DNA from: Candidatus Oscillochloris fontis
GTDB taxonomy: Bacteria; Chloroflexota; Chloroflexia; Chloroflexales; Chloroflexaceae
Assembly (NCBI RefSeq): GCF_004138135.1
Contig: NZ_RYFD01000008.1
Location: 1 to 64,000, forward strand
Direction: 5' to 3'
DNA: 64,000 nt
Position 1 is the stretch's first letter, and each line of letters begins with the position of its first letter. The notes below the pieces were generated by a model. It ran no database searches, was not told the origin of the DNA, and worked only from the letters and a program-made list of their open reading frames with translations. Below, piece after piece: positions 1,897 to 60,851 of the stretch. Both the position numbers and the translations under genes were made by a program.

Positions 1897-3024
1897 ATGG
1901 CGAAGATTTTGCTCATCGAAGACGAACCGACCATTCGTGAAGAGGTCTTGGATTGGCTTCAGTTTGAGGGCTATGAGGCGCTTGGTGCTCCCAATGGGCG
2001 GCTTGGGTTAGAGGTTATCCAGCGCGATCATCCCGATCTTATCTTGTGTGATATTGCCATGCCCGAAATGGATGGCCATGAGGTGTTGCTTGAGGTGCGG
2101 GCGAGTATGCGTTTCAGTTCCACTCCCTTTGTCTTTCTCACTGCCTCGGCGGATCGAGAGGCGATTCGTCGGGGGATGGATATGGGGGCTGATGACTATC
2201 TGACCAAGCCCTTCAGCCATGCTGAGTTGTTGAATATGGTACGCTCGAGGTTGCGCAAGAAGGAACTCCAAGAAGAGGTGATGCTCGGTCGCATCCAGAT
2301 GCTCGATGCGGCTCTAGCCGAGGAGCGCGAGCAGCGGCTGCTCAAGTCGCGTCTGGTGGCGATGTTCTCGCACGATTTTCGCAATCCGCTTACCGCGATC
2401 ATGGCTTCGGCTGAGTTGTTAGATGAGATGAGTGATCCACAGCACTATGTGACGCACAAACAGAAGTATGTGAATCGCATCTTTGGTTCGGTCTATATCC
2501 TGCTCCAGATGTTGGACGAGGTGATGGTCGTTGCCGAAATGGAGGGAGGGCACATCACATGTACTCCTCAGATGATGGATTTGCTCAGCTTTGTCGAGAA
2601 GATCATCGAGGAGTTTCGGCTTATTGATCGGAATGCCCATATCTTCAGTCTTACCTACAGCCTGCCTGAACAAATCGAACTTGATCCACGGCTCTTGCGG
2701 CATATCTTGGCCAACCTGATCGCCAATGCGATCAAGTACTCACCAGTCGGGAGTGAAATTAGGCTCAATCTCTCTCTCCACCATGATCAGATCTGGCTCG
2801 AAGTCCATGATCAGGGCATCGGCATTCCTACTGAAAGCCTCCCGTATCTCTATGAACCCTTCCACCGCGCCAAGAATGCCAAACAGATCAAGGGTGTCGG
2901 CTTAGGGCTGAGTATCGTCAGGGAGTGTGTGCTGGCCCATAACGGACAGATTGCGGTTGAAACGCAGGTCAATGGTGGTACGATGTTCAAGGTAGTGCTA
3001 CCCTTGGTGCCAATTTCTACATGA
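1897..3024 (+). CDS. hybrid response regulator / histidine kinase
   Basis: 375 residues. The N-terminal receiver (about residues 1-120) has phospho-acceptor Asp in LILCDIAMPEMDG and the conserved Lys in YLTKPF. A coiled linker follows, then a HisKA helix with H-box SHDFRNPLTA and a HATPase_c domain (N-box NLIANAIKY, DQGIGIP, GVGLGLS). The order receiver-then-kinase suggests it takes phosphate from the upstream PAS kinase and acts as a second kinase, but no DNA-binding output domain is present. Translation is probably coupled to the upstream gene (2-base gap). Confidence 0.93.
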   Translation: MAKILLIEDEPTIREEVLDWLQFEGYEALGAPNGRLGLEVIQRDHPDLILCDIAMPEMDGHEVLLEVRASMRFSSTPFVFLTASADREAIRRGMDMGADDYLTKPFSHAELLNMVRSRLRKKELQEEVMLGRIQMLDAALAEEREQRLLKSRLVAMFSHDFRNPLTAIMASAELLDEMSDPQHYVTHKQKYVNRIFGSVYILLQMLDEVMVVAEMEGGHITCTPQMMDLLSFVEKIIEEFRLIDRNAHIFSLTYSLPEQIELDPRLLRHILANLIANAIKYSPVGSEIRLNLSLHHDQIWLEVHDQGIGIPTESLPYLYEPFHRAKNAKQIKGVGLGLSIVRECVLAHNGQIAVETQVNGGTMFKVVLPLVPIST

Positions 3025-3040
3025 ATGGATTGATGTCTCT

Positions 3041-3748
3041 ATGACCACTGCCTTGATCACAACCAGCGCTCTGGCCCGCAGTTACGCCATGGGTAAGACA
3101 AGTGTGGCCGCGCTGCGTGGGGTGGATCTGACGGTGCAGCCGGGTGAGTTCGTGGCGCTGGTGGGGCCGAGTGGCAGCGGGAAGAGTACGCTGCTGCACC
3201 TGATCGGTGGTTTGGTGCGCCCTAGTGCCGGTGAGGTGTGGGTGCATGGTTTGGAGTTGGGGCGCAGTAGCGATGCCGAGTTGGTGGCCTACCGCCGCGA
3301 TACGCTTGGTTTTATCTTCCAGAGCTTCAACCTCTTACCGATCAAGTCGGCATGGGAGAATGTGGCCGTACCACTCATGCTCGCCGGTGCGCCGCTAGCC
3401 ACTCGCAAGGCGCGTGCCCTCACATTGCTCGATCAACTCGGCTTGGCCGCCCGCGCCGATCATCGCCCCTCGGAACTCAGCGGCGGTGAACAACAGCGCG
3501 TCGCCATCGCCCGCTCTCTGGCCAACCGTCCGCGCCTACTCCTCGCCGACGAACCCACTGGCAACCTCGACTCGCGCACTGGGAGCGAGATTATGGGCCT
3601 TCTCCAGCGCCTTGTGCGTGACGAGGGGCTGACCATGCTGCTCGTCACCCATGATATGGGTGTGGCCAGTTTTGCCGACCGCATCGTGCATCTACGCGAT
3701 GGGATGATCGAGCGGATTGAGGCGGTGGGGCACAATGCGCAATCGTAG
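3041..3748 (+). CDS. ABC transporter ATP-binding protein (LolD/MacB type)
   Basis: 235 residues, the usual length for this family. Walker A GPSGSGKST, Q-loop region FIFQSFNLLP, signature LSGGEQQRVAIARSLA, Walker B LLLADEPT and H-loop LLVTHDMG are all intact. Sequence style matches the ATPases that drive FtsX/MacB-like permeases (lipoprotein release, efflux or cell-envelope mechanotransmission). No permease gene is next to it, so its membrane partner must be encoded elsewhere. The gene ends inside a hairpin that also ends the convergent HD-GYP gene. Confidence 0.93.
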   Translation: MTTALITTSALARSYAMGKTSVAALRGVDLTVQPGEFVALVGPSGSGKSTLLHLIGGLVRPSAGEVWVHGLELGRSSDAELVAYRRDTLGFIFQSFNLLPIKSAWENVAVPLMLAGAPLATRKARALTLLDQLGLAARADHRPSELSGGEQQRVAIARSLANRPRLLLADEPTGNLDSRTGSEIMGLLQRLVRDEGLTMLLVTHDMGVASFADRIVHLRDGMIERIEAVGHNAQS

Positions 3749-3772
3749 AGACGCAAAATATTGCGTCTCTAC
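3745..3772. terminator. shared stop-codon hairpin, bidirectional terminator-like
   Basis: Perfect 12-bp inverted repeat (3745-3756 / 3761-3772, arm GTAGAGACGCAA) with loop AATA. Its left end supplies the TAG stop of the ABC ATPase (3746-3748). Its right end, read on the minus strand, supplies the TAG stop of the HD-GYP gene (3769-3771). The same GTAGAGACGC motif recurs at 37912 and 49553. No long T-run follows, so terminator activity is inferred. Confidence 0.6.
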
Positions 3773-5322
3773 CCACCATCCATCACCTGAAAGAAGATCC
3801 GTACCGCCTCTGGATCAAGGTGGCTCCCGGCCAAGGTGTTGATGTGGTCGCGTACCCGTTCGACTGGCCAGGCAGGACGGTAGGGGCGATCCGAGCGTAG
3901 CGCATCCCAGATGTCAATCACCGCGAAGAGCCGTGCGGCAAGTGGGATCTCGGTTCCACGCAACCCACGTGGGTAGCCCGTACCATCCCAACGCTCGTGG
4001 TGGCAGTAGGGGATGGCGAGCGCGGGATGCAAGAAACTGATCGGCATCAGGAGTTGGTAGGCATAGACGGGATGCATGCGCATGATGGCCCACTCCTCCT
4101 CGCTGAGCGGGCCGGGTTTGAGTAGAATCGCGTCAGGCACCCCCATCTTGCCGATGTCGTGCAGCAGTGCCCCCCATCGCGCATAGTTGATCTCCTCCTC
4201 GCCCATTCCCGCAGCCCGCGCCATGCGCACCGTCATCTCCGTCACCCGCTGCGAATGCCCCTGCGTCTCCTGATCGCGGAGGTCGAGTGCTCGTGACCAG
4301 CCCTCTAGGGTGCTGTTGTAGGCGGCGAAGATCTCGTGGTTGGAGTGTTGCAGATCATTGACCAAGCGGGCATTCTCGATGGCCACGGCGGCAATGTTCG
4401 CGGCCATACCTAGCATCGCCGCGTGGCCCATACTAAAACTGCCGGGGCTAAAGCTCTGCACTTGAAGTACCCCAATCACCTGTTCACGGGCGATCATGGG
4501 CACATAGAGGATCGATTCGGCAACCCCGCCCTCATCACTTCCCACCTCCACGACTTGGATGGAACGCTGGTTCAATTCCTCAAAGCTGCCCACAATCATT
4601 GGTTGGCGCTTGTGGATGGTGTCGCTCTGAATACCTTTTCCAGGCGGAGCCAGCGTGAAGATGGGAAACTCACGCGGATCGATCTGTTCACCATCCAGAA
4701 TCGCAAAGACGCAGCGGATCTGCTGGGTTGTCGCATCAAAGAGCGAGAAGATTGCCCCGGCCACATCGGGCAACAACTTCATGGCCACCTCATAGAGTAG
4801 CCGATACATCCGCTCAAGATCGAGCGTCTCGGCCAAGGCCCGCCCCAGCGTATTAATCACCTCCAGATCCTCACTACGCGAACGGGCATGACTGAGGCGT
4901 ATGGCATGCACTACCGCTTGGCTGGTCAGATCGGCAATGCTGGTGAGGAGGTGCTGATGCTGGCGGGCCGGATTGAGCAGCACGAGCGCCCCAACGGGAA
5001 TGCCGTCATGCCACAGACCGATGCTATGTACCTGACCGAGCATGTGTGGGGAGTATTGGGGTTGGGCAGGGGCGGGGTGGCTGGGCGGGGGGATGAATTG
5101 CGCCACCTGGGCCAGATCTGCGCCGCGACTGCGTACCATGCGGATCACCCGGCACTCTTCATCATAGGCTCCGATGATGGCCATGGTTTGAAAGGCTACT
5201 GCTACTTCATAACAAATCAGATCTAATACTGAATCTAATAAGTGATCGTTATTCAGTTCTTTGATTAGCCGAGTCAGCAGGGTGAATGCCTCAGCATTGC
5301 TCAGTTCATGCGGATCGGCCAC
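3769..5322 (-). CDS. GAF - HD-GYP phosphodiesterase-like signalling protein
   Basis: 517 residues. Two GAF-like sensor domains (about residues 20-160 and 170-320; the second contains YVPMIAREQVIGVLQVQS) are followed by an HD-GYP domain (about 335-517). The metal and signature motifs HDIGK (HD near residue 388) and HHERWDGTGYP (near 440-450) are intact, so cyclic-di-GMP hydrolysis is plausible. The short second motif is the classical GYP form. There is no transmembrane segment. The convergent ABC gene shares its stop-codon hairpin. The ligand of the GAF domains cannot be told from sequence. Confidence 0.92.
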   Translation of the reverse strand: MADPHELSNAEAFTLLTRLIKELNNDHLLDSVLDLICYEVAVAFQTMAIIGAYDEECRVIRMVRSRGADLAQVAQFIPPPSHPAPAQPQYSPHMLGQVHSIGLWHDGIPVGALVLLNPARQHQHLLTSIADLTSQAVVHAIRLSHARSRSEDLEVINTLGRALAETLDLERMYRLLYEVAMKLLPDVAGAIFSLFDATTQQIRCVFAILDGEQIDPREFPIFTLAPPGKGIQSDTIHKRQPMIVGSFEELNQRSIQVVEVGSDEGGVAESILYVPMIAREQVIGVLQVQSFSPGSFSMGHAAMLGMAANIAAVAIENARLVNDLQHSNHEIFAAYNSTLEGWSRALDLRDQETQGHSQRVTEMTVRMARAAGMGEEEINYARWGALLHDIGKMGVPDAILLKPGPLSEEEWAIMRMHPVYAYQLLMPISFLHPALAIPYCHHERWDGTGYPRGLRGTEIPLAARLFAVIDIWDALRSDRPYRPAWPVERVRDHINTLAGSHLDPEAVRIFFQVMDGG

Positions 5323-19683: not shown

Positions 19684-21123
19684 ATGCTCTTCGCCGGGAT
19701 AGATGTCGGCACCCAGGGAGTACGGGTCATGGTCGCCGATGTGGCCGGGGCGGTTGTGGCGCGCGCCAGCGCCCCGCTGAGTACCCACACCCACCCGGAT
19801 GGGCGGGTCGAACAGAATCCGACCGAGTGGTGGACGGCGGCGTGTAGCTGTCTGCGTCAGGTGACGCAAACATTGGGGGCGCAGGCGGAACATATTGCGG
19901 CCCTGGCAGTCACGGCGACCTCCGGCACGCTCTGTCTGCTCGATGCCCAGGGCCAGCCACTTGGCCCGGCGATCATGTACCGCGACCAGCGCGCAGTAGC
20001 CGAGGCCAACGAACTGAACCAGTGCGCGGTGGAGTTGCGCGAGCGCCTTGGCTACCGCTTCGATGCTTCCTTTGGCCTACCCAAACTGCTCTGGCTCCAG
20101 CGCCATGCCCGCGCCGAGTTATCGGCAGCGCGCTATGTGGCCCACGCCGCCGACGTGATCGTGGGCGGGCTGTGTGGCGACTATGGCACCAGTGATTGGA
20201 GCCACGCGCTCAAGAGCGGCTATGACCTGCTCAACCTGGATTGGCCGCGTGATCTACTGGCCGACCTCGATCTGCCGCTGGCCAAGTTGCCGCATGTGGT
20301 TGCCCCCGGCACCCCGATTGGCCCGATCACCCCGGTGGCTGCCCTCAGCACCGGGCTGCCGCGCAGTGCGCTGGTGGTGGCGGGCATGAGCGATGGTTGC
20401 GCGGCCCAGATCGCGGGTGGCGCGGTGCAACCCGGCCAGTGGTTGAGTGTCCTCGGCACCACACTCGTCTTTAAGGGCGTGAGCGCCGATCTGCCGCACG
20501 ACCCGCAGGGGCGGGTGTATGCCCACCGCCACCCAGAGGGCCATTGGTTGCCGGGGGCGGCCAGCAGCACTGGCGGAGCCGCCTTGGTGGCGCGTTTCCC
20601 CAAGGCCGATCTGGCCGCGCTGGATGCCCAGGCACTCGTGCGTAGCCCCGGCAGCGCCATCTGCTACCCACTCCAGGGCCAGGGCGAACGCTTCCCCTTT
20701 GTGAATCCCCAGGCACGCGGCTTTCTGAGCGGGGCCAACGCCGACGATCCTATTGCCGAGTACACCGCCATCCTAGAGGGCGTAGCCTATCTGGAGCGGC
20801 TGGCGTATGCCACCTTCAGACAGCTCGGTTACGCGGTGGTCGGGCCAATCCGAACTGCCGGAGGCGGGGCGCGCAGCCCGGTCTGGTTGCAGATCCGCGC
20901 CGACATCCTGGGGCGCACGCTCCTTGTCCCGGCGGAGGTCGAGGCCGCCTTTGGGGCCGCGATCATCGCGGCGGCGGCGCTGGCCTACCCAGGGTTGAGC
21001 GCGGCCACCCAGGCGATGTGCCACCTCCGCCATGAGGTTGCGCCGCGCCCCGATGCGGAGCGTTATAGCGCACCATACCAGCGTTTTCTGGCGGCACTTG
21101 AGGAGCGGGGTTTTGTTTCGTAA
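19684..21123 (+). CDS. FGGY-family carbohydrate kinase (xylulokinase-like)
   Basis: 479 residues from ATG 19684 (AGGAGG 5 bases upstream, partly at the MITE border). FGGY fold: N-terminal FAGIDVGTQGVRVMVAD phosphate motif, RDQRAVAEAN, GMSDGCAAQIAGGA and the C-terminal GGGARSPVWLQI adenosine motif. It phosphorylates a sugar or polyol; xylulose is likely but not proven. The TAA stop (21121-21123) lies in the GTAA terminus of a MITE. A 51-bp exact copy of its 3' region is found at 23970. Confidence 0.88.
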   Translation: MLFAGIDVGTQGVRVMVADVAGAVVARASAPLSTHTHPDGRVEQNPTEWWTAACSCLRQVTQTLGAQAEHIAALAVTATSGTLCLLDAQGQPLGPAIMYRDQRAVAEANELNQCAVELRERLGYRFDASFGLPKLLWLQRHARAELSAARYVAHAADVIVGGLCGDYGTSDWSHALKSGYDLLNLDWPRDLLADLDLPLAKLPHVVAPGTPIGPITPVAALSTGLPRSALVVAGMSDGCAAQIAGGAVQPGQWLSVLGTTLVFKGVSADLPHDPQGRVYAHRHPEGHWLPGAASSTGGAALVARFPKADLAALDAQALVRSPGSAICYPLQGQGERFPFVNPQARGFLSGANADDPIAEYTAILEGVAYLERLAYATFRQLGYAVVGPIRTAGGGARSPVWLQIRADILGRTLLVPAEVEAAFGAAIIAAAALAYPGLSAATQAMCHLRHEVAPRPDAERYSAPYQRFLAALEERGFVS

Positions 21124-21203
21124 CTATTCACACTTCTCCTAGGTACACGGGCGTCTCGTCCGCGTACCCAGCATCGTCTTTTACCCCAAGTGTGAAGAGT
21201 TAC
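21120..21203. mobile_element. short MITE variant with a different core
   Basis: 84 bp. Both ends match the family in reverse orientation (GTAACTATTCACACTTCTCC at left, TACCCCAAGTGTGAAGAGTT then AC at right), but the usual GACGCAAAG core is replaced by a small GTACACGG/CCGCGTAC hairpin. The 8-base flanks agree in 6 positions (TTTGTTTC and CTTGTTTA), so the insertion is older. It provides the kinase stop codon. Confidence 0.8.
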
Positions 21204-23927: not shown

Positions 23928-23951
23928 GTAGGGGCGACGCATCGCCCCTAC
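23928..23951. repeat. short GTAGGGGCGA hairpin
   Basis: Arms GTAGGGGCGA / TCGCCCCTAC around CGCA. The right flank (GGGATGATCGGGG, then ACTCGGCGAT) matches the spacer next to the 73-bp hairpins at 59765, so these belong to one repeat family. Confidence 0.65.
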
Positions 23952-28377: not shown

Positions 28378-28395
28378 GGAAGTTCCTGTAGGGTA

Positions 28396-29148
28396 CTACT
28401 TCTTCTCGTCATCAAGCTCGTCGTCATCAAGCTCATCGTCGTCGAATTCCTCATCGTCAAGCTCTTCATCATCAAGCTCGTCGTCGTCGAATTCCTCGTC
28501 ATCAAGCTCGTCGTCGTCAAGCTCCTCGTCCTCATCAAGCGGCGTGTCGCTTGGGGTTGCCACACTCGCCGCAGCGGACTTCGCTGGCTTCGCTGGCTGC
28601 GAATGGGCCTTTTGTGCCAACTGGGCGGCCTTGAGCACCTTCGCGGTTGGCGCAAGCAGCAGCGAGAGCACGCGGCCCTCCATGAGCGGCTTCTGTTCGA
28701 TCACCGAAATATCGCGCAACTGCTCAGCAATCTGCTCAAGCATCTTGCGACCGATATCCGGGTGCGCCATTTCACGCCCACGGAAGCGCACATTGAACTT
28801 CACCTTGTCTCCGGTAAGGAGGAAGCGACGTGCCTGATTGGCCTTGACCTCAAGATCGTGATCGTCGGTCTTGGGCATCAGACGGATCTGCTTCAGCTCG
28901 GCCTGCTTCTGATTCTTGCGAGCCTCGCGTTCCTTCTTGCTCTGCTCGTAGCGGAACTTGCCATAGTCGAGCAGACGGCAGACAGGTGGCACAGCGTTGG
29001 GCGCCACTTCAACAAGATCCAGGCCACGCTCTTCTGCGAGGCCAACAGCTTCGCGTACCGAGACGATACCGACCTGTGTCCCATTCTCGTCGATCAGGCG
29101 AACCTCACGCGCGCGAATGCGGTTGTTGATGCGAAACCGATCTCTAAT
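28396..29148 (-). CDS. infC: translation initiation factor IF-3, AUU start, acidic tail
   Basis: 250 residues starting at ATT 29148. The frame shows the full IF3 N-domain (RINNRIRAREVRLIDENGT) before the first GTG at 29007, so later starts would cut the domain. AGGAG stands 7 bases before ATT, and AUU is the known autoregulatory start of infC. The C-domain follows (VKFNVRFRGREMAHPDIGR). Beyond it lie an Ala/Lys-rich linker and about 40 residues almost only Asp, Glu, Leu and Phe, an unusual extension over the roughly 180-residue norm. Confidence 0.95.
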   Translation of the reverse strand: MRDRFRINNRIRAREVRLIDENGTQVGIVSVREAVGLAEERGLDLVEVAPNAVPPVCRLLDYGKFRYEQSKKEREARKNQKQAELKQIRLMPKTDDHDLEVKANQARRFLLTGDKVKFNVRFRGREMAHPDIGRKMLEQIAEQLRDISVIEQKPLMEGRVLSLLLAPTAKVLKAAQLAQKAHSQPAKPAKSAAASVATPSDTPLDEDEELDDDELDDEEFDDDELDDEELDDEEFDDDELDDDELDDEKK

Positions 29149-37404: not shown

Positions 37405-37911
37405 ATGGAAGCTATTCAGAATCTACTCGCTAATGTTATACCGTTGCTGATGGTGCTAGGGGTTCTGCTCGGAGCCTATCTGATTCTGCTCTGGGCAGCC
37501 TCGGTGTTGTGGACTTACCGCGACATTCGCCAACGCAGCGAGGATGTTTCGGTGCAAGTCTTGGCGGTGGGGATGGTCTTGCTGCTACCGTTTGCCGGGA
37601 TTCCCCTGCACATGATTCTGCGTCCTCCCCAAACTCTGGCCGAGAAGTATGAGCGTTCGTTGGAAGAGGAGTACCTGCGCAACGACATCGAAGACAAGTT
37701 TGTCTGCCCGGAGTGTCAGCGCCCGATAGAACCCGACTTCATTCTCTGCCCGCATTGCACCACCGCGCTGCGTCGTCGCTGCGAGGTCTGTTCGCGGGTG
37801 GTTGATCTGACGTGGACCACCTGCCCCTACTGTGGTGACACGGGCACCCCAGCGGCGCGCCAAGCCACCACGGCAGTTGGCGTGGCCTACCCAGCGCGGC
37901 GTGGGGAATAG
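37405..37911 (+). CDS. membrane protein with double zinc ribbon
   Basis: 168 residues. Two membrane helices (about residues 8-35 and 48-68) are followed by a cytoplasmic acidic linker and two zinc ribbons: CPECQRPIEPDFILCPHC and CEVCSRVVDLTWTTCPYC. The function is unknown; such ribbons often mediate protein contacts. It follows darA by 11 bases. The TAG stop begins the TAGAGACGC hairpin. Confidence 0.85.
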   Translation: MEAIQNLLANVIPLLMVLGVLLGAYLILLWAASVLWTYRDIRQRSEDVSVQVLAVGMVLLLPFAGIPLHMILRPPQTLAEKYERSLEEEYLRNDIEDKFVCPECQRPIEPDFILCPHCTTALRRRCEVCSRVVDLTWTTCPYCGDTGTPAARQATTAVGVAYPARRGE

Positions 37912-37931
37912 AGACGCAAGATATTGCGTCT
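37912..37931. terminator. GAGACGCAA-type hairpin after the zinc-ribbon gene
   Basis: Arms AGACGCAA / TTGCGTCT with loop GATA. It is a close relative of the hairpin at 3745 and, like it, starts with the TAG stop of the preceding gene. Terminator function is inferred. Confidence 0.5.
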
Positions 37932-48264: not shown

Positions 48265-49284
48265 ATGTTACTCGATGTTTCGTTCGCCGTAGATTCCAAT
48301 CCACTCCCGGTGGCCGCCGAGGTTGCGCGGGCTGCCGAAGAGGTTGGCTTTGCTGCACTCTGGACGCCTGAAACCGGCCACAATGGCTTTTTGCCCTTGG
48401 CACTCGCGGCTGAGCATACCTCGCGGATCAGCATCGGCACCGCGGTTGCCATCGCCTTCCCACGCAGCCCGATGGTCACCGCGCAGATTGCTTGGGACTT
48501 GGCGGCCTTTTCGGGTGGACGCTTCATTTTGGGGCTGGGAACGCAGGTCAAAGCGCATATCGAGCGGCGCTTCAGCACGCCGTGGGACGCGCCGGTGGGG
48601 CGGCTTCACGACTACATTCTCGCCCTGCGTGCGATCTGGCAGAGCTGGCAGACGGGCGAGCGGCTCAATTATCGCGGGCGCTTCTACCAGCACACCCTGA
48701 TGACCCCGTTCTTTAGCCCTGGGCCAATTGAGCACCCCAACATCCCGATCTATATTGCCGGGGTGAATAGTGGCCTCGCCCAGTTGGCTGGTGAGTTGTG
48801 CGATGGATTCCATGCCCATCCGCTCAACAGTGCCAAGTACACTGCCGAGGTTATTCGGCCTCAGATCGCTATTGGAGCGGCCAAAGCTGGGCGTGACTCC
48901 AGCGCTTGTGCGATTGCCGGGAGCGCCTTTGTGATCACCGGCCACGATACCGAGACCCGCGAACGGGTGCGCGGCTTTGTGCGCCAGCAGATCTCCTTCT
49001 ACGGCTCGACTCCCACCTATCGGGCGGTGCTAGAGTGCCACGGCTGGGGCGAGATTGGCGAACAACTCTCGCAACTCGCCGCCCAGCAGCGCTGGGCCGA
49101 GATGCCAGCGCTCGTCACGCCGGAGATGGAGGCCACCTTTGCGGTTGAGGCCGAACCGGATGCGGTCGGGGCGGCATTGCGCGAGCGGTATGATGGTTTG
49201 CTGGATCGTATTGGGCTATACATCCCGTTTGTGCCGGGGCAGATGGACGATTTCTGGCGCAAGTTAGCGGCAGATTTGGTGTAG
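48265..49284 (+). CDS. LLM-class oxidoreductase (F420-dependent type)
   Basis: 339 residues, luciferase-like barrel: DVSFAVDSNPLPVAAEVARA, EEVGFAALWTPETGHNGFLP, FILGLGTQVKAHIERRFS and PIYIAGVNSGLAQLAGELCD. It matches the TIGR03617-like subgroup of presumed F420 enzymes. The substrate is unknown. Coenzyme F420 use is inferred from family and from the Ddn-like protein at 22 kb. The TAG stop lies in the first unit of a repeat. Confidence 0.87.
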   Translation: MLLDVSFAVDSNPLPVAAEVARAAEEVGFAALWTPETGHNGFLPLALAAEHTSRISIGTAVAIAFPRSPMVTAQIAWDLAAFSGGRFILGLGTQVKAHIERRFSTPWDAPVGRLHDYILALRAIWQSWQTGERLNYRGRFYQHTLMTPFFSPGPIEHPNIPIYIAGVNSGLAQLAGELCDGFHAHPLNSAKYTAEVIRPQIAIGAAKAGRDSSACAIAGSAFVITGHDTETRERVRGFVRQQISFYGSTPTYRAVLECHGWGEIGEQLSQLAAQQRWAEMPALVTPEMEATFAVEAEPDAVGAALRERYDGLLDRIGLYIPFVPGQMDDFWRKLAADLV

Positions 49285-49289
49285 AGACG

Positions 49290-49402
49290 CCCCGGTGGGG
49301 CGTCTACCCCGGTGGGGCGTCTACCCCGGTGGGGCGTCTACCCCGGTGGGGCGTCTACCCCGGTGGGGCGTCTACCCCGGTGGGGCGTCCACCCCGGTGG
49401 GG
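49290..49402. repeat. 17-bp tandem palindromic repeat, seven units
   Basis: CCCCGGTGGGG occurs at 49290, 49307, 49324, 49341, 49358, 49375 and 49392, exactly 17 bases apart, joined by CGTCTA. Unit and linker make overlapping hairpins with GACGCCCC/GGGGCGTC arms. The seventh linker has one change. It lies directly after the LLM gene. Confidence 0.92.
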
Positions 49403-49552: not shown

Positions 49553-49581
49553 GTAGAGACGCCCCACCGGGGCGTCTCTAC
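49553..49581. terminator. GTAGAGACGCCCC hairpin at the end of the RTX-like gene
   Basis: 13-bp perfect arms (49553-49565 / 49569-49581) with loop ACC. The right arm, read on the minus strand, supplies the TAG stop of the RTX-like gene. It is related to the 17-bp tandem unit and to the hairpin at 3745. Confidence 0.6.
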
Positions 49582-49967
49582 TCTTCGCAACTGGGATCGA
49601 TCAGATTGTCCCCTGAACCCCCCATACAAACATCATTCCCCTCGCCACCGATCAGGGTATCGTCGCCACCGCCGCCAACCAGGCAATCATCGCCGCCTTG
49701 GCCATCAATCAGATCGGCACCCGCCCCACCCAGAATCAGGTCATTCCCGCTCGTGCCGTTGATAGTACCACTCCCAGAGATCATCGAACTCAGCCCCATT
49801 CCACGACATGCCTCTGGGGCAAGCTCCTCAACACCCACCGATTGGCTCTGGGCATCGAGATGAGTCGCTGGGATACTGTTATTGGCCGCCGCCGCAAAAT
49901 AGATCTGGCTGATCACGAAGCCGATCAGTAAGACGATACCGAATTGAATGAGGTGTGCCGGCTTCAT
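49578..49967 (-). CDS. small secreted RTX-like calcium-binding repeat protein
   Basis: 129 residues from ATG 49967. A signal helix (FGIVLLIGFVISQIYFAAAA) is followed by NNSIPATHLD, the same AA-N-x-IP pattern as in the protein at 51819. The C-terminal half has nonapeptide-like repeats (GNDLILGGAGADLIDG, GGDDTLIGGEGNDVCMGG) of the haemolysin calcium-binding kind, plus several Cys. It is probably exported and cut by the neighbouring signal peptidase; its start is 5 bases before the end of that gene. Confidence 0.8.
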   Translation of the reverse strand: MKPAHLIQFGIVLLIGFVISQIYFAAAANNSIPATHLDAQSQSVGVEELAPEACRGMGLSSMISGSGTINGTSGNDLILGGAGADLIDGQGGDDCLVGGGGDDTLIGGEGNDVCMGGSGDNLIDPSCEE

Positions 49968-49972
49968 AGGGT

Positions 49973-51736
49973 TCAGCCTTTCAGAGTGCGCCGCTGCCAT
50001 GCTACCAAGCGCGCATCCTTCCACGCCTGGGCAAATTCGGCTGAGCGCTCGCGTTCGTGGTAGACGGTGATAATATCTATGCCAATTGCTCGGCAGGCAT
50101 CAGCGGCGAGGCCGGTTTCGCGCAGCGCATGGAGGAAGTCTGCCTGCCAAGCTGGCTCCTGGGGCGGCGGTTCGGCGTGCTTCGGGCGCACTTCGTACTC
50201 TGGTTGCTCATGCTGCACGATGGGCGCGGCCTCCAACGGCGCTCCATACACATAGAGTACCTGCTCGTGCTGCATAAAGTAGCGCGGCTGACTCGCTGAG
50301 GTATCGTGCATGATCAACGCGCCATGGCGCTCAGCCAGTTTGGCCAGATCTTCAAATGAGCCGATCTGCACCACTTGGTTCGCAGGCAGAGACGGCAACC
50401 CCGTCACCTCGATCAGCAGTGGGCCATAACGCAGCGCGATGCGTGCTACTTCATCTTGACGCGCCGTGTGCAGCAACGGCAGCGCCAACAGTGCCACCAA
50501 CCCACCCGCTACCACCGCCATAATCAGCCCGATCTGGCGCGCTTGGGCCACGTCCATGGTGATGCCGAGCAACTTCATACTGGCCGCTTCGCTGTGTGGC
50601 CGGTTCAACACCCCTTGTTGCTGCGGTGTGAGGGGATCACTCCCATCTTCATTCGAGATCATCTGGATTTGGAGCTGATCCACATGAAACCGCAATGGTG
50701 GTGCAAAGCTCTCTTGGACACTCATCCCCCCGACTGCGCCCTCAAGTTCAATCCTAGGAATGAAGGCGAGCGTGAATTGCTGATTCTTCAAGCCAGTCTG
50801 GGCCTCAAATTGTGCAATGATTTCATTCAGACGGCGCAGTTCAATCTCGCTATGTATGGACAGGCTCGTACTCTGGATGGCTTGATCCTCGACCAAAATG
50901 ATCGTCCGCCGCCAGCCATTCTGGCTACTCAGCACAACCGCCATCCCGTAGCGCCCGCCCACCATCACCGCCTGATCGCTAGAGAACTGGTACTCAAAAT
51001 CTACGCTCAACCGCTGCGAGAGTTGGCGGAAGATCGGATCGCCCGAATAGGCCGCTGAGGAATCATAAAGCCCCGCCGGGGCATCGGCAGAGTAGCGAAA
51101 ACGAGCTTGATGCTGGTAGTTGAGATTCTCGACACCCGCTTTGCTGGTGGGCCGGGTAAAGGCAAAGCCTGCCAGGGCCAGACCAGCCACCGCCAGAAGG
51201 GCTAAGAGTGTCATGGCCCATTGGCGTAGATCGCTGTTGGGCGGGGTGCCGCGCTGGGTACGATTCGGATGTTCTGCCTGTGTACGGCGTACCATGATGA
51301 TAACCCCTCCTGTCATCAACAACGCGAGCAGGAGTGGAGATTGGCGCACCTGCACCAACCACTTGCCGAGGTTGGGGATGTGAACCCATGCGCGACCGAT
51401 CAGATCGGCATCAACCGGGCGGTATGGATCAATATAATCGTTGTGGTCGCCCTGGAAGATCCAGCGCTCACCCTCGCGCCCAATGATGCGGTGGATGACC
51501 GGGCCGATCTCAGGATGCTGGTAGGTGACGATGTCGCCGATCTGGTAGCTGCTGGTAGTCTGAATGAGTACCAAATCGCCGCGATAGTAGACCGGCTCCA
51601 TGCTGTTGCCATTCACAATGATTGCGGCCACTCTGCCACCGAACTGGATCGGGGCAAAGAGGAACCATGCGAACCCCATTGCACCAATCATCAGCGCGAT
51701 CTTCAGGTTGGCTGGAAGTGTGCTGGGGGAACGCAT
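49973..51736 (-). CDS. S26B-type signal peptidase fused to a DUF5305-like domain
   Basis: 587 residues. N-terminal membrane helix, then a signal peptidase I domain with Ser in VNGNSMEPVYYRGD, His (not Lys) in GPVIHRIIG and Asp in FQGDHNDYID, the SipW/ER type. A second helix pair (about 130-150 and 175-195) leads to a large outer domain (about 200-410, DUF5305-like), a further helix (VVAGGLVALLALPLL) and a cytoplasmic tail of about 150 residues. Fusion to such domains is unusual. The flanking genes encode likely substrates. Confidence 0.82.
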   Translation of the reverse strand: MRSPSTLPANLKIALMIGAMGFAWFLFAPIQFGGRVAAIIVNGNSMEPVYYRGDLVLIQTTSSYQIGDIVTYQHPEIGPVIHRIIGREGERWIFQGDHNDYIDPYRPVDADLIGRAWVHIPNLGKWLVQVRQSPLLLALLMTGGVIIMVRRTQAEHPNRTQRGTPPNSDLRQWAMTLLALLAVAGLALAGFAFTRPTSKAGVENLNYQHQARFRYSADAPAGLYDSSAAYSGDPIFRQLSQRLSVDFEYQFSSDQAVMVGGRYGMAVVLSSQNGWRRTIILVEDQAIQSTSLSIHSEIELRRLNEIIAQFEAQTGLKNQQFTLAFIPRIELEGAVGGMSVQESFAPPLRFHVDQLQIQMISNEDGSDPLTPQQQGVLNRPHSEAASMKLLGITMDVAQARQIGLIMAVVAGGLVALLALPLLHTARQDEVARIALRYGPLLIEVTGLPSLPANQVVQIGSFEDLAKLAERHGALIMHDTSASQPRYFMQHEQVLYVYGAPLEAAPIVQHEQPEYEVRPKHAEPPPQEPAWQADFLHALRETGLAADACRAIGIDIITVYHERERSAEFAQAWKDARLVAWQRRTLKG

Positions 51737-53747: not shown

Positions 53748-53848
53748 TTGGGGCTATGCCCCAAACCCCAATTTTTGGTAGTGTTTGGCGGCTACGCCGC
53801 CAAACACTACCAAAAAAGATCTTCGGGGGCGGCGCAGCCGCCCCCGAA
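53748..53848. repeat. triple-hairpin repeat, copy 4
   Basis: A hairpin 53748-53764 (TTGGGGC arms), B hairpin 53772-53792 / 53796-53816 (perfect 21-bp stem, loop TAC) and C hairpin 53822-53848 (TTCGGGGGCGGC arms, loop GCA). The outer stem B sequence TTTTTGGTAGTGTTT is unique. It fills the spacer between ahcY and metK. Confidence 0.9.
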
Positions 53849-53890
53849 CCCCCACCGGAGGTGGAAGGGGCGATCTTCTGGCAGAAAGGC

Positions 53891-58600: not shown

Positions 58601-58698
58601 TCTATGGAGTCACCCAGTTCAATAACCGGGCGAACATTGGCGGCGATTATAGCATGGCTATGAGTCTGGTGCAAACGAGTTCGCGGCTTCTCGTAGTA

Positions 58699-58796
58699 TC
58701 AAGGTTTTGACGCAAAGACGCCAAGGCGCAAAGCCTGCAACATAATCTTTGCGTCTATGCGCCTTGGCGTCAATATAAGAGGTTTCTAGTTACCCC
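58699..58796. mobile_element. decayed MITE at the truB 3' end
   Basis: Core GACGCAAAGACGCCAAGGC ... GCCTTGGCGTCAATATAAG and the adjoining TTACCCCA block match the family; both terminal repeats are lost. The truB stop codon (minus-strand GGGGTAA, 58790-58792) comes from the element's GGGGTAA block. Confidence 0.8.
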
Positions 58797-59691: not shown

Positions 59692-59865
59692 GTAGGGGCG
59701 AAGCATCGCCCGCCAAGCGCGTTCGGGTTCTCCTGCTCCATGGTGGGCGATGCTTCGCCCCTACGGGATGATCGGGGAACCCGGCGATTAATGTAGGGGC
59801 GAAGCATCGCCCGCCAAGCGCGTTCGGGTTCCCCTGCTCCATGGTGGGCGATGCTTCGCCCCTAC
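59692..59865. repeat. two tandem 73-bp hairpins (GTAGGGGCGAAGC family)
   Basis: Copies 59692-59764 and 59793-59865 have 20-bp perfect arms (GTAGGGGCGAAGCATCGCCC and its complement) and differ by one base in the 33-base loop. The 28-base spacer matches the flank of the short hairpin at 23928. The end of the second copy supplies the TAG stop of nrnA (59862-59864). Confidence 0.92.
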
Positions 59866-60851
59866 GCAAGCACAGCACGCAACATCGGCAGCACCGTCGC
59901 CTCAGCCTCAGCCAAGCCCATCGCCAGATCGGCCCCGGCGGCCTGAGCATGGCCACCACCGCCCCAAGTGCGAGCAACTTCGGCCACATTGATGCCACGC
60001 ACCGAGCGCAGGCTGATCTTCACCTGGCCGTTGGCGCGCTCCTTAAAGAGCACCGCTGCGCGCATCCCGGCCACGCGCTGCAAACGGATCATCGTCTCAT
60101 CGGTGGCCTCGTCATTGGCCCCGGTCGCTTGGAGCATCGCCTGGGAGACTGAGACCCACAGCAGGCCATCTTCGCGCTGCATCTGGCTGAGTGCCAACCC
60201 GGCCAACTGCACTGTCTCTGGCGGGAGCGAGAAGTAGACCGCATTGATCACCGTCGCATGATCGGCCCCGGCCTCCAGAATATCCGCCGTGGTGCGCAGT
60301 GTCTGGGGCGAGGAGGCGCTGGTCTGGAAGCTCTGGGTATCGGTGGTGACGCCGAGCAGCATACAGGTGGCCGCCGCCGGAGTGATCGGAGCCTGCATGG
60401 CGCGCAGCAGGCGGAAGAGCAGATCGGCACACGAAGCGGCATGCGGATCGATCAGATTGACTGTCCCGCGCCCATTGTTGGTGACATGGTGATCCACCAA
60501 CAACAACGGGTGGGCGGCGATCTCCGCTTCATGATCCGCAAAGATCTGGCCGACCCGTTGCAGTTCGGCGGTATCGAGCATCCAGATCAGATCGCAATCG
60601 GGCAGGGGGCTACCGGGTTGGTAGATGTGTACCTGCTCAACACCGGGCAGATTGAAGCTGTAGTAGGGCAGCGCCGAGGATGCTAAGGGGATGGGTTCTT
60701 TACCCATCGCCAGCAGGGTATGGTAGGCACCGAGGAGCGAACCAATCGCATCACCATCGGGATTGATGTGGGTGAGCAGGAGGATGCGTTGGGACGCGGC
60801 GATCTGGGCAGCAAAGGCGGGTGCAGCAACTGTGGGATCAGTGTAGATCAT
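59862..60851 (-). CDS. nrnA: DHH-family oligoribonuclease / pAp phosphatase
   Basis: 329 residues. DHH motifs THINPDGDAIGSLLG, MLDTAELQ and LLVDHHVTNNG bind manganese; the DHHA1 domain ends with GGGGHAQAAGADL. It degrades short RNAs and 3'-phosphoadenosine 5'-phosphate. The start overlaps the methyltransferase gene by 4 bases. The stop lies in a repeat. Confidence 0.93.
   Translation of the reverse strand: MIYTDPTVAAPAFAAQIAASQRILLLTHINPDGDAIGSLLGAYHTLLAMGKEPIPLASSALPYYSFNLPGVEQVHIYQPGSPLPDCDLIWMLDTAELQRVGQIFADHEAEIAAHPLLLVDHHVTNNGRGTVNLIDPHAASCADLLFRLLRAMQAPITPAAATCMLLGVTTDTQSFQTSASSPQTLRTTADILEAGADHATVINAVYFSLPPETVQLAGLALSQMQREDGLLWVSVSQAMLQATGANDEATDETMIRLQRVAGMRAAVLFKERANGQVKISLRSVRGINVAEVARTWGGGGHAQAAGADLAMGLAEAEATVLPMLRAVLA

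Follow-up and report, generated by a model that had tools for sequence, protein, structure and literature searches.

Short palindromes dispersed through the genome analysed here are registered with TAG stop codons, and this registration is real, statistically strong and above chance. Within the window, i.e. the whole stretch of 64,000 nucleotides under study (contig C15), a single palindrome terminates two convergent genes (Table 1). The TAG at the edge of an element would mostly be the gene's own earlier stop, captured through the tetranucleotide GTAG that element ends and gene ends have in common; we put this reading at about an even chance, and the shared GTAG is the most economical account, over selection for a stop and terminator in one unit.

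As proposed in the first-pass annotation, one hairpin gives TAG to both convergent genes at the main site. Read directly in the sequence, the triplet at 3746-3748 on the plus strand is the stop of the ABC ATPase ORF, and the one complementary to 3769-3771 on the minus strand is that of the HD-GYP ORF. The orthologues of the ABC ATPase gene differ at their ends by a few residues only, and the HD-GYP orthologue (L116) of the congener G005 terminates in another palindrome, GTAGGGGCGGCTCGCGAGCCGCCCCTAC. When the HD-GYP gene was compared with the nearest named records, those of uncultured Oscillochloris MAGs, the best segment was 63 and 77% identical, so that the genome most likely belongs to a filamentous member of the Chloroflexota. 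A known RNA family was dropped as a candidate for the palindrome, because Rfam gave no match at the gathering score between positions 3000 and 5000.

Several further genes of the window had been said to end in related hairpins. This was found to be so for the LLM (Bac_luciferase) ORF, the final bases of which are GTAG at 49281-49284, and for the RTX-like gene, while the zinc-ribbon gene, ending in a decayed ATAG copy (ATAGAGACGC..., 37908), makes a weaker case. The proposed end of nrnA was borne out as well, as the stop of the DHH/DHHA1 (nrnA-like) gene at 59862-60851 on the minus strand occupies 59862-59864 in the GTAGGGGCG arm. MITE ends were likewise supposed to provide the stops of two genes; the FGGY kinase does take its stop there, at 21120, but the TAA of truB (58790-58792) sits in an inner, degenerate GGGGTAA, away from the repeat end, and is again a weaker case. 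Counter-examples occur in the window too: the GTAGGGGCG palindrome at 23928-23951 lies off stops, and the GTAGGGGCGA at 3880 is coding sequence.

Table 1. Palindromes, related repeats and associated genes of the window.
Feature	Position	Strand	Remark
28-bp perfect palindrome GTAGAGACGCAA-AATA-TTGCGTCTCTAC	3745-3772	.	one of 44 full genome copies
ABC transporter ATPase gene, 3' end inside palindrome	3041-3748	+	ABC_tran, 121.5 bits
GAF + HD-GYP gene, 3' end inside palindrome	3769-5322	-	HD_5, 115.2 bits
GTAACTATTCACACTT...AAGTGTGAAGAGTTAC repeat, first bases are TAA of FGGY kinase gene	21120-21203	.	
GTAGGGGCGACGCATCGCCCCTAC palindrome, non-coding DNA	23928-23951	.	counter-example, away from any stop
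Decayed copy ATAGAGACGCAAGATATTGCGTC, 3' end of zinc-ribbon gene (DZR domain), TAG 37909-37911	37908-37930	+	sequence, domain search
GTAGAGACGCCCCGGTGGGGCGTCTAC, 3' end of luciferase-like (LLM) gene	49281-49307	+	opens 17-bp tandem array to about 49408
29-bp palindrome, right arm is TAG of RTX-like gene 49578-50024 (-)	49553-49581	.	
Degenerate TTGACGCAAAG repeat, truB stop TAA 58790-58792	58687-58792	.	
GTAGGGGCG...CGCCCCTAC element, copy 1 of 2	59692-59765	.	
GTAGGGGCG...CGCCCCTAC element, copy 2 of 2; TAG of DHH/DHHA1 gene in its right arm	59793-59865	.	

Other repeats were also observed in the window. A 15-bp tandem repeat at 28391-28555 lies over the start of ORF 28396-29007 (minus strand), which encodes translation initiation factor IF-3 with a repetitive, acidic-looking C-terminal tail. 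Another widespread 3' repeat, about 130 bp long, is found at 53770-53860 and in similar places in contigs C1, C9, C34, C56 and C121; it forms a hairpin (GGCGGC loop region), with matching changes in the stem from copy to copy, and a GGGGGCGGC hairpin comes after it.

In the genome as a whole (G000; 4.46 Mb in 139 contigs), GTAGAGACGC half sites number 218 (118 + 100), compared with 9 (6 + 3) for the reversed control, and 44 palindromes are full, nearly all of them GTAGAGACGCAANNNNTTGCGTCTCTAC. Registration with stops was counted in a sample of 1,645,223 bp that contains every one of the 44 full copies and 166 of the 218 half sites, together with 1375 genes called with a purpose-made hexamer model. 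In-frame TAG stops were found at 42 of these 166 GTAGAGACGC heads, and in-frame stops at 47 of 287 GTAGGGGCG heads. Random placement over non-coding DNA and the terminal 15-60 bp of each gene, the outcome named in the first-pass annotation as refuting its proposal, predicts 1.9-5.1% of heads at stops and was rejected against the 42/166. The position is exact: measured from the nearest stop, the interval -40 to -4 is free of GTAGAGACGC heads, and every other distance up to 60 has between 0 and 5. Stops excepted, six of the 166 heads lie within predicted coding sequences, two of them on the strand of their own gene. Inverted repeats (arm of at least 9) beginning at the base before the stop accompany 71 of 623 TAG stops, whereas the figures for TAA and TGA are 2/374 and 2/347; in G005 the corresponding counts are 24/282, 3/137 and 3/200.

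The elements are short, high-copy and mostly extragenic palindromes, located on the 3' side of genes in convergent or unidirectional arrangement, as GTAG REPs are. The full copies are distributed over 27 convergent, 16 unidirectional and a single divergent intergenic location, although convergent intervals make up only 14% of non-coding bases and divergent ones 33%. As for stop codons in general, TAG is the commonest both in G000 (626/1352; 59% GC) and in G005 (282/619; 66% GC), and the base before the stop is G in 386 of 623 TAG, 125 of 374 TAA and 99 of 347 TGA stops, for which the palindromes account in part only. Palindrome units of 22-30 bp were also seen in tandem arrays (C136:3947-4127, C56:67536-67700, C70:26255-26471, C98:30605-30767 and C27:9107-9207); in some of these arrays all units are changed on both sides of the stem, as if palindromicity were kept while the sequence drifts.

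Element heads were also compared with ordinary GTAG. Among the GTAGs that are either stops or non-coding, 112 of 463 element heads (24.2%) are at stops, as are 277 of 1530 ordinary ones (18.1%). The heads of the GTAGGGGCG family behave as expected from the ordinary rate (47/242, p = 0.32), while an excess over 18.1% is seen for GTAGAGACGC heads (42/160, p = 0.007) and for the ends of full copies (25/88, p = 0.012). The GTAA-headed repeat is found at stops in 5 of 59 cases, other GTAA in 121 of 932. Since the rate for heads is only somewhat above that of ordinary GTAG, the insertion target looks like GTAG itself, in combination with a tendency to avoid genes and promoters. The second possibility raised in the first-pass annotation, targeted insertion at gene ends, comes nearer to the data with this qualification. 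In the 27 convergent full palindromes the TAG is used on the left only in 6, on the right only in 7, on both sides in 4 and on neither in 10 (Fisher p = 1), hence the two ends of a palindrome are used independently. Per end, TAG use amounts to 21/54, compared with 28.4% GTAG at other convergent ends (p = 0.097).

Gene lengths were compared in 226 reciprocal-best pairs between G000 and G005, which include 22 comparable genes with a TAG-head and 187 controls. The G000 protein is equal in length to its orthologue in 11/22 and within 2 aa in 19/22 of the former, and in 114/187 and 154/187 of the latter. Nor did the orthologue comparisons reveal genes that an inserted palindrome had cut short to a large extent. 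In G005 the stop is TAG in 9 of 22 cases when that of G000 is a TAG-head and in 78 of 187 otherwise; orthologous stop codons are randomised (saturated) at this distance, so that the orthologue comparison is without power on a pre-existing TAG. Joining the flanks within the genome yielded no empty sites, with matches to other repeat families and arrays only.

Alternatively, the element might carry its own TAG and land within the final codons of a gene or close to them, where only landings in the TAG phase would survive; the stop would then be new, and the landing would often cost a few bases, the old stop among them. We regard this as possible, though rather unlikely. It would account for the presence of GTAGAGACGC at stops more often than shared GTAG predicts, for the slightly shorter G000 proteins in one comparison (an orthologue check in which orthologues were found for 21 of 25 genes and the protein of G000 frequently falls short by at least one residue), and for gene L at C82:44618, which ends in MVAR and the stop where its orthologues end otherwise. 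Random landing in the last 15-60 bp, however, predicts 1.9-5.1%, as against the 25% and 16% observed for the two head families; out-of-phase landings resulting in read-through, expected twice as often, are absent for GTAGAGACGC, and the frequency of lengths equal to those of orthologues is about that of the controls. We favour the capture of stops, with GTAG presumably present before insertion, over their supply by the element. The rate, the independence of the ends and the retention of length all agree with joining at a GTAG already at the gene end, short of proof. The excess of GTAGAGACGC heads, the often slightly shorter G000 proteins and the transposase profile scores below the cut-off speak against it.

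GTAG is common to element ends and to about 22-28% of other gene ends. Under this capture reading, an element would join, or enter by strand switching, at a GTAG on one side or on both, and the old stop would become the outermost bases of the palindrome. Joining on four shared bases at both sides would be a mechanism of a familiar type, of which no direct case was seen. Genes and promoters would exclude insertions and leave gene 3' ends over, above all those between convergent genes; purifying selection against insertion in promoters or genes would give strong 3' placement. The 28-bp element, with its short loop, would then tend to lengthen outward as the nascent strand folds back and copies the flank.

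This last step bears on a further feature of the full copies. Outside the 28 bp, the flanks are perfectly complementary over 4-18 bp in 21 of the 44, with nine at exactly 6 bp, whereas flank pairs taken from different copies are complementary in 15 of 1892. Such symmetry was rejected as a general trait of palindromes of this kind, as it is found in 0/76 of the GTAGGGGCGA family. Insertion into pre-existing gene-end hairpins whose loop carries the stop would explain the 21 copies complementary over at least 4 bp and the nine at exactly 6, and some of the flank-symmetric copies are nested (e.g. C60:39008 and C22:101285); there are also orthologues of the gene C121:73643L that end in hairpins around the stop. 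This origin appears improbable, given the 0/76 of the GTAGGGGCGA family and the rarity of stop-centred hairpins (arm of at least 9; 7 of 1340 G000 stops). Because such hairpins are too rare to serve as general landing sites, the flanks are read as growth by fold-back copying, and the complementary flanks, a new observation, suggest fold-back growth of the palindrome, by a route that we infer.

One locus points the same way. At C82:44618 gene R ends in IPMVAR and the stop, and its G005 orthologue has a similar end (gtggtggtgcgg TAG), while gene L has the same MVAR-stop end as gene R, unlike the orthologues of gene L. Judging from the sequence, the end of gene L seems to be an inverted copy of its neighbour's, by which it would have gained a stop and four codons, in a single case. 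The full scheme, in which a RAYT-linked palindrome makes a GTAG joint on either side and about 6 flank bases are then copied in inverted form onto the other side, so that it captures stops, is able to replace the final codons of a convergent neighbour and allows one palindrome to serve two genes for their stops, is put forward as a doubtful proposal. If true, this RAYT-linked route of GTAG joint and flank copying would be a case of a mobile element editing gene ends in a defined way, and symmetric flanks, if coupled to insertion, would be a footprint of the insertion of REPs by RAYTs, a step termed poorly understood (PMC8266576).

Palindromes were also sampled in relatives (14/26 in G017, 27/32 in G005, 15/15 in G009, 10/19 in G007, 3/9 in G001, and six at loci of other genomes). 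At least one stop is supplied by 8 of the 27 in G005, with both ends used in 2, and by 3/14 in G017, 1/15 in G009, 0/10 in G007 and 1/3 in G001; at the loci of other genomes one of the six supplies a stop, at both ends. These counts indicate that stop use varies between genomes. The symmetric flanks replicate clearly in G017 (5/14; control 2/182) and weakly in G005 (2/27; control 4/702), and the flanks of G009 and G007 appear to belong to a longer repeat. The relative G001 (L141, contig C162) carries TTGGT-GTAGAGACGGCTCGCGAGCCGCCCCTAC-ACCAA, in which both heads are mixed in one palindrome, again with complementary flanks. Moreover, two genes lie next to each other in convergent orientation in G005 (L135, C98) and G003 (L136, C174) but are split in G000 to contigs C119 and C54, where each ends in its own 28-bp palindrome; the palindromes may mark rearrangement breakpoints.

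The first of the two explanations offered in the first-pass annotation, that selection has joined stop and transcription terminator in one unit, is not supported and is very improbable in our judgement. The hairpin is strong (mean -18.4 kcal/mol), 27 of 44 copies are convergent against 14% of non-coding bases, and in E. coli REPs within 15 nt of the stop can reduce translation (PMC12306157), which makes some effect on expression plausible. However, a T-tract (at least 5 T in the 8 bases after the palindrome end) follows 2 of the 88 ends of the 28-bp palindromes, below the background of 3.1%, and no terminator-like site was called at 3600-3950, so the palindromes were rejected as intrinsic terminators. 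Selection for nearness would, moreover, predict a graded distance, unlike the single exact position seen. The occupied stops are lineage-specific between the two congeners: in the reciprocal-best pairs 18 were found in G000 and 11 in G005, none of the 29 being shared (one under a looser definition), by which conserved ancestral palindromes were rejected as well.

The palindromes are probably REP-like, non-autonomous elements spread by the two RAYT-type Y1 transposases of this genome. RAYT-1 (C6:31234-31752, 173 aa) is located downstream of a GTAGGGGCGAAGC repeat array of the GTAGGGGCG family, and RAYT-2 (C56, 176 aa, GTG start) begins 26 bp past a GTAGAGACGC array, upstream of which an ABC gene itself terminates in a GTAGAGCCGC palindrome. 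Both families thus have a Y1/HuH transposase gene adjoining the repeat, as in REPtrons, and a RAYT-like gene beside an array of each makes these genes candidates for the mobilising enzyme of each family. The proteins score 61.8 and 52.8 bits (E = 6.6e-17 and 3.7e-14) with REP_Tyr_transpos (NF047646; NCBIfam cut-off 80), and RAYT-1 scores above the cut-off of the Y1_Tnp profile; by eye, we take both to carry the HuH and Tyr motifs. GTAG is the conserved tetranucleotide of REPs; some of the systems require it for cleavage, and a role as a guide has been proposed (PMC8266576).

The closest known system is the super-family of GTAG-tagged REPs (Di Nocera et al. 2013, PMC3733652), which has been reported in Chloroflexi among other phyla. 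These too are short GTAG-tagged palindromes in many copies, mostly intergenic, near the 3' ends of unidirectional or convergent genes, and their termini are often TAG stops. According to the same source, the GTAG termini often supply the stop codon of flanking ORFs ('opal' is written there, with the codon given as TAG), and in two genomes most of the REPs located between convergent genes are within 20 bp of both 3' ends. Hence the overlap with stops in general is already noted, and the headline is known; the sections of that paper on stop overlap give neither rate nor mechanism, and rates are given here. A difference is that the GTAG of those REPs is unpaired and at one end, whereas in the 44 full copies of the 28-bp element it is paired with CTAC and occurs at both ends. 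With arrays of GTAG palindromes beside a Y1/HuH transposase gene, the present families resemble the REPtron/RAYT (TnpA-REP) systems (PMC2817692, PMC8266576), although both proteins are below the NCBIfam REP_Tyr_transpos cut-off and thus candidate RAYTs, and the 28-bp element is a perfect palindrome with GTAG inside the stem.

The REP/BIME elements of E. coli share the GTAG head and the extragenic hairpin near gene 3' ends. In K-12, however, 0 of 18 GTAG-REP heads are at a stop in 196 kb. TAG stops are rare in E. coli K-12, so this fits the idea of a shared GTAG, which for comparison across genomes predicts that the share of REP ends on stops tracks the share of GTAG gene ends. Template switching at quasipalindromes, a known route of mutation at inverted repeats (PMC8794818), likewise yields perfect, extended inverted repeats and compensatory changes in the stem (PMC8794818, PMC7202029); here it would act at a dispersed mobile palindrome reaching gene ends, with no ancestor-descendant pair seen. 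The MITE-like repeat of the FGGY kinase is alike in that its terminal GTAA coincides with the TAA stop in 5 of 59 cases, but belongs to another repeat family without TAG, at a rate not above that of other GTAA (13%). Literature searches with the palindrome motif string, among the matches listed, and with Oscillochloris plus 'palindromic' returned only unrelated work. A point to which the REP literature gave a single sentence is now quantified, and the null expectation, GTAG shared with stops, largely explains it without selection. The family described here is a variant with paired GTAG ends and its own likely RAYT, and the fold-back flanks and the double-ended use of stops are the parts worth following.
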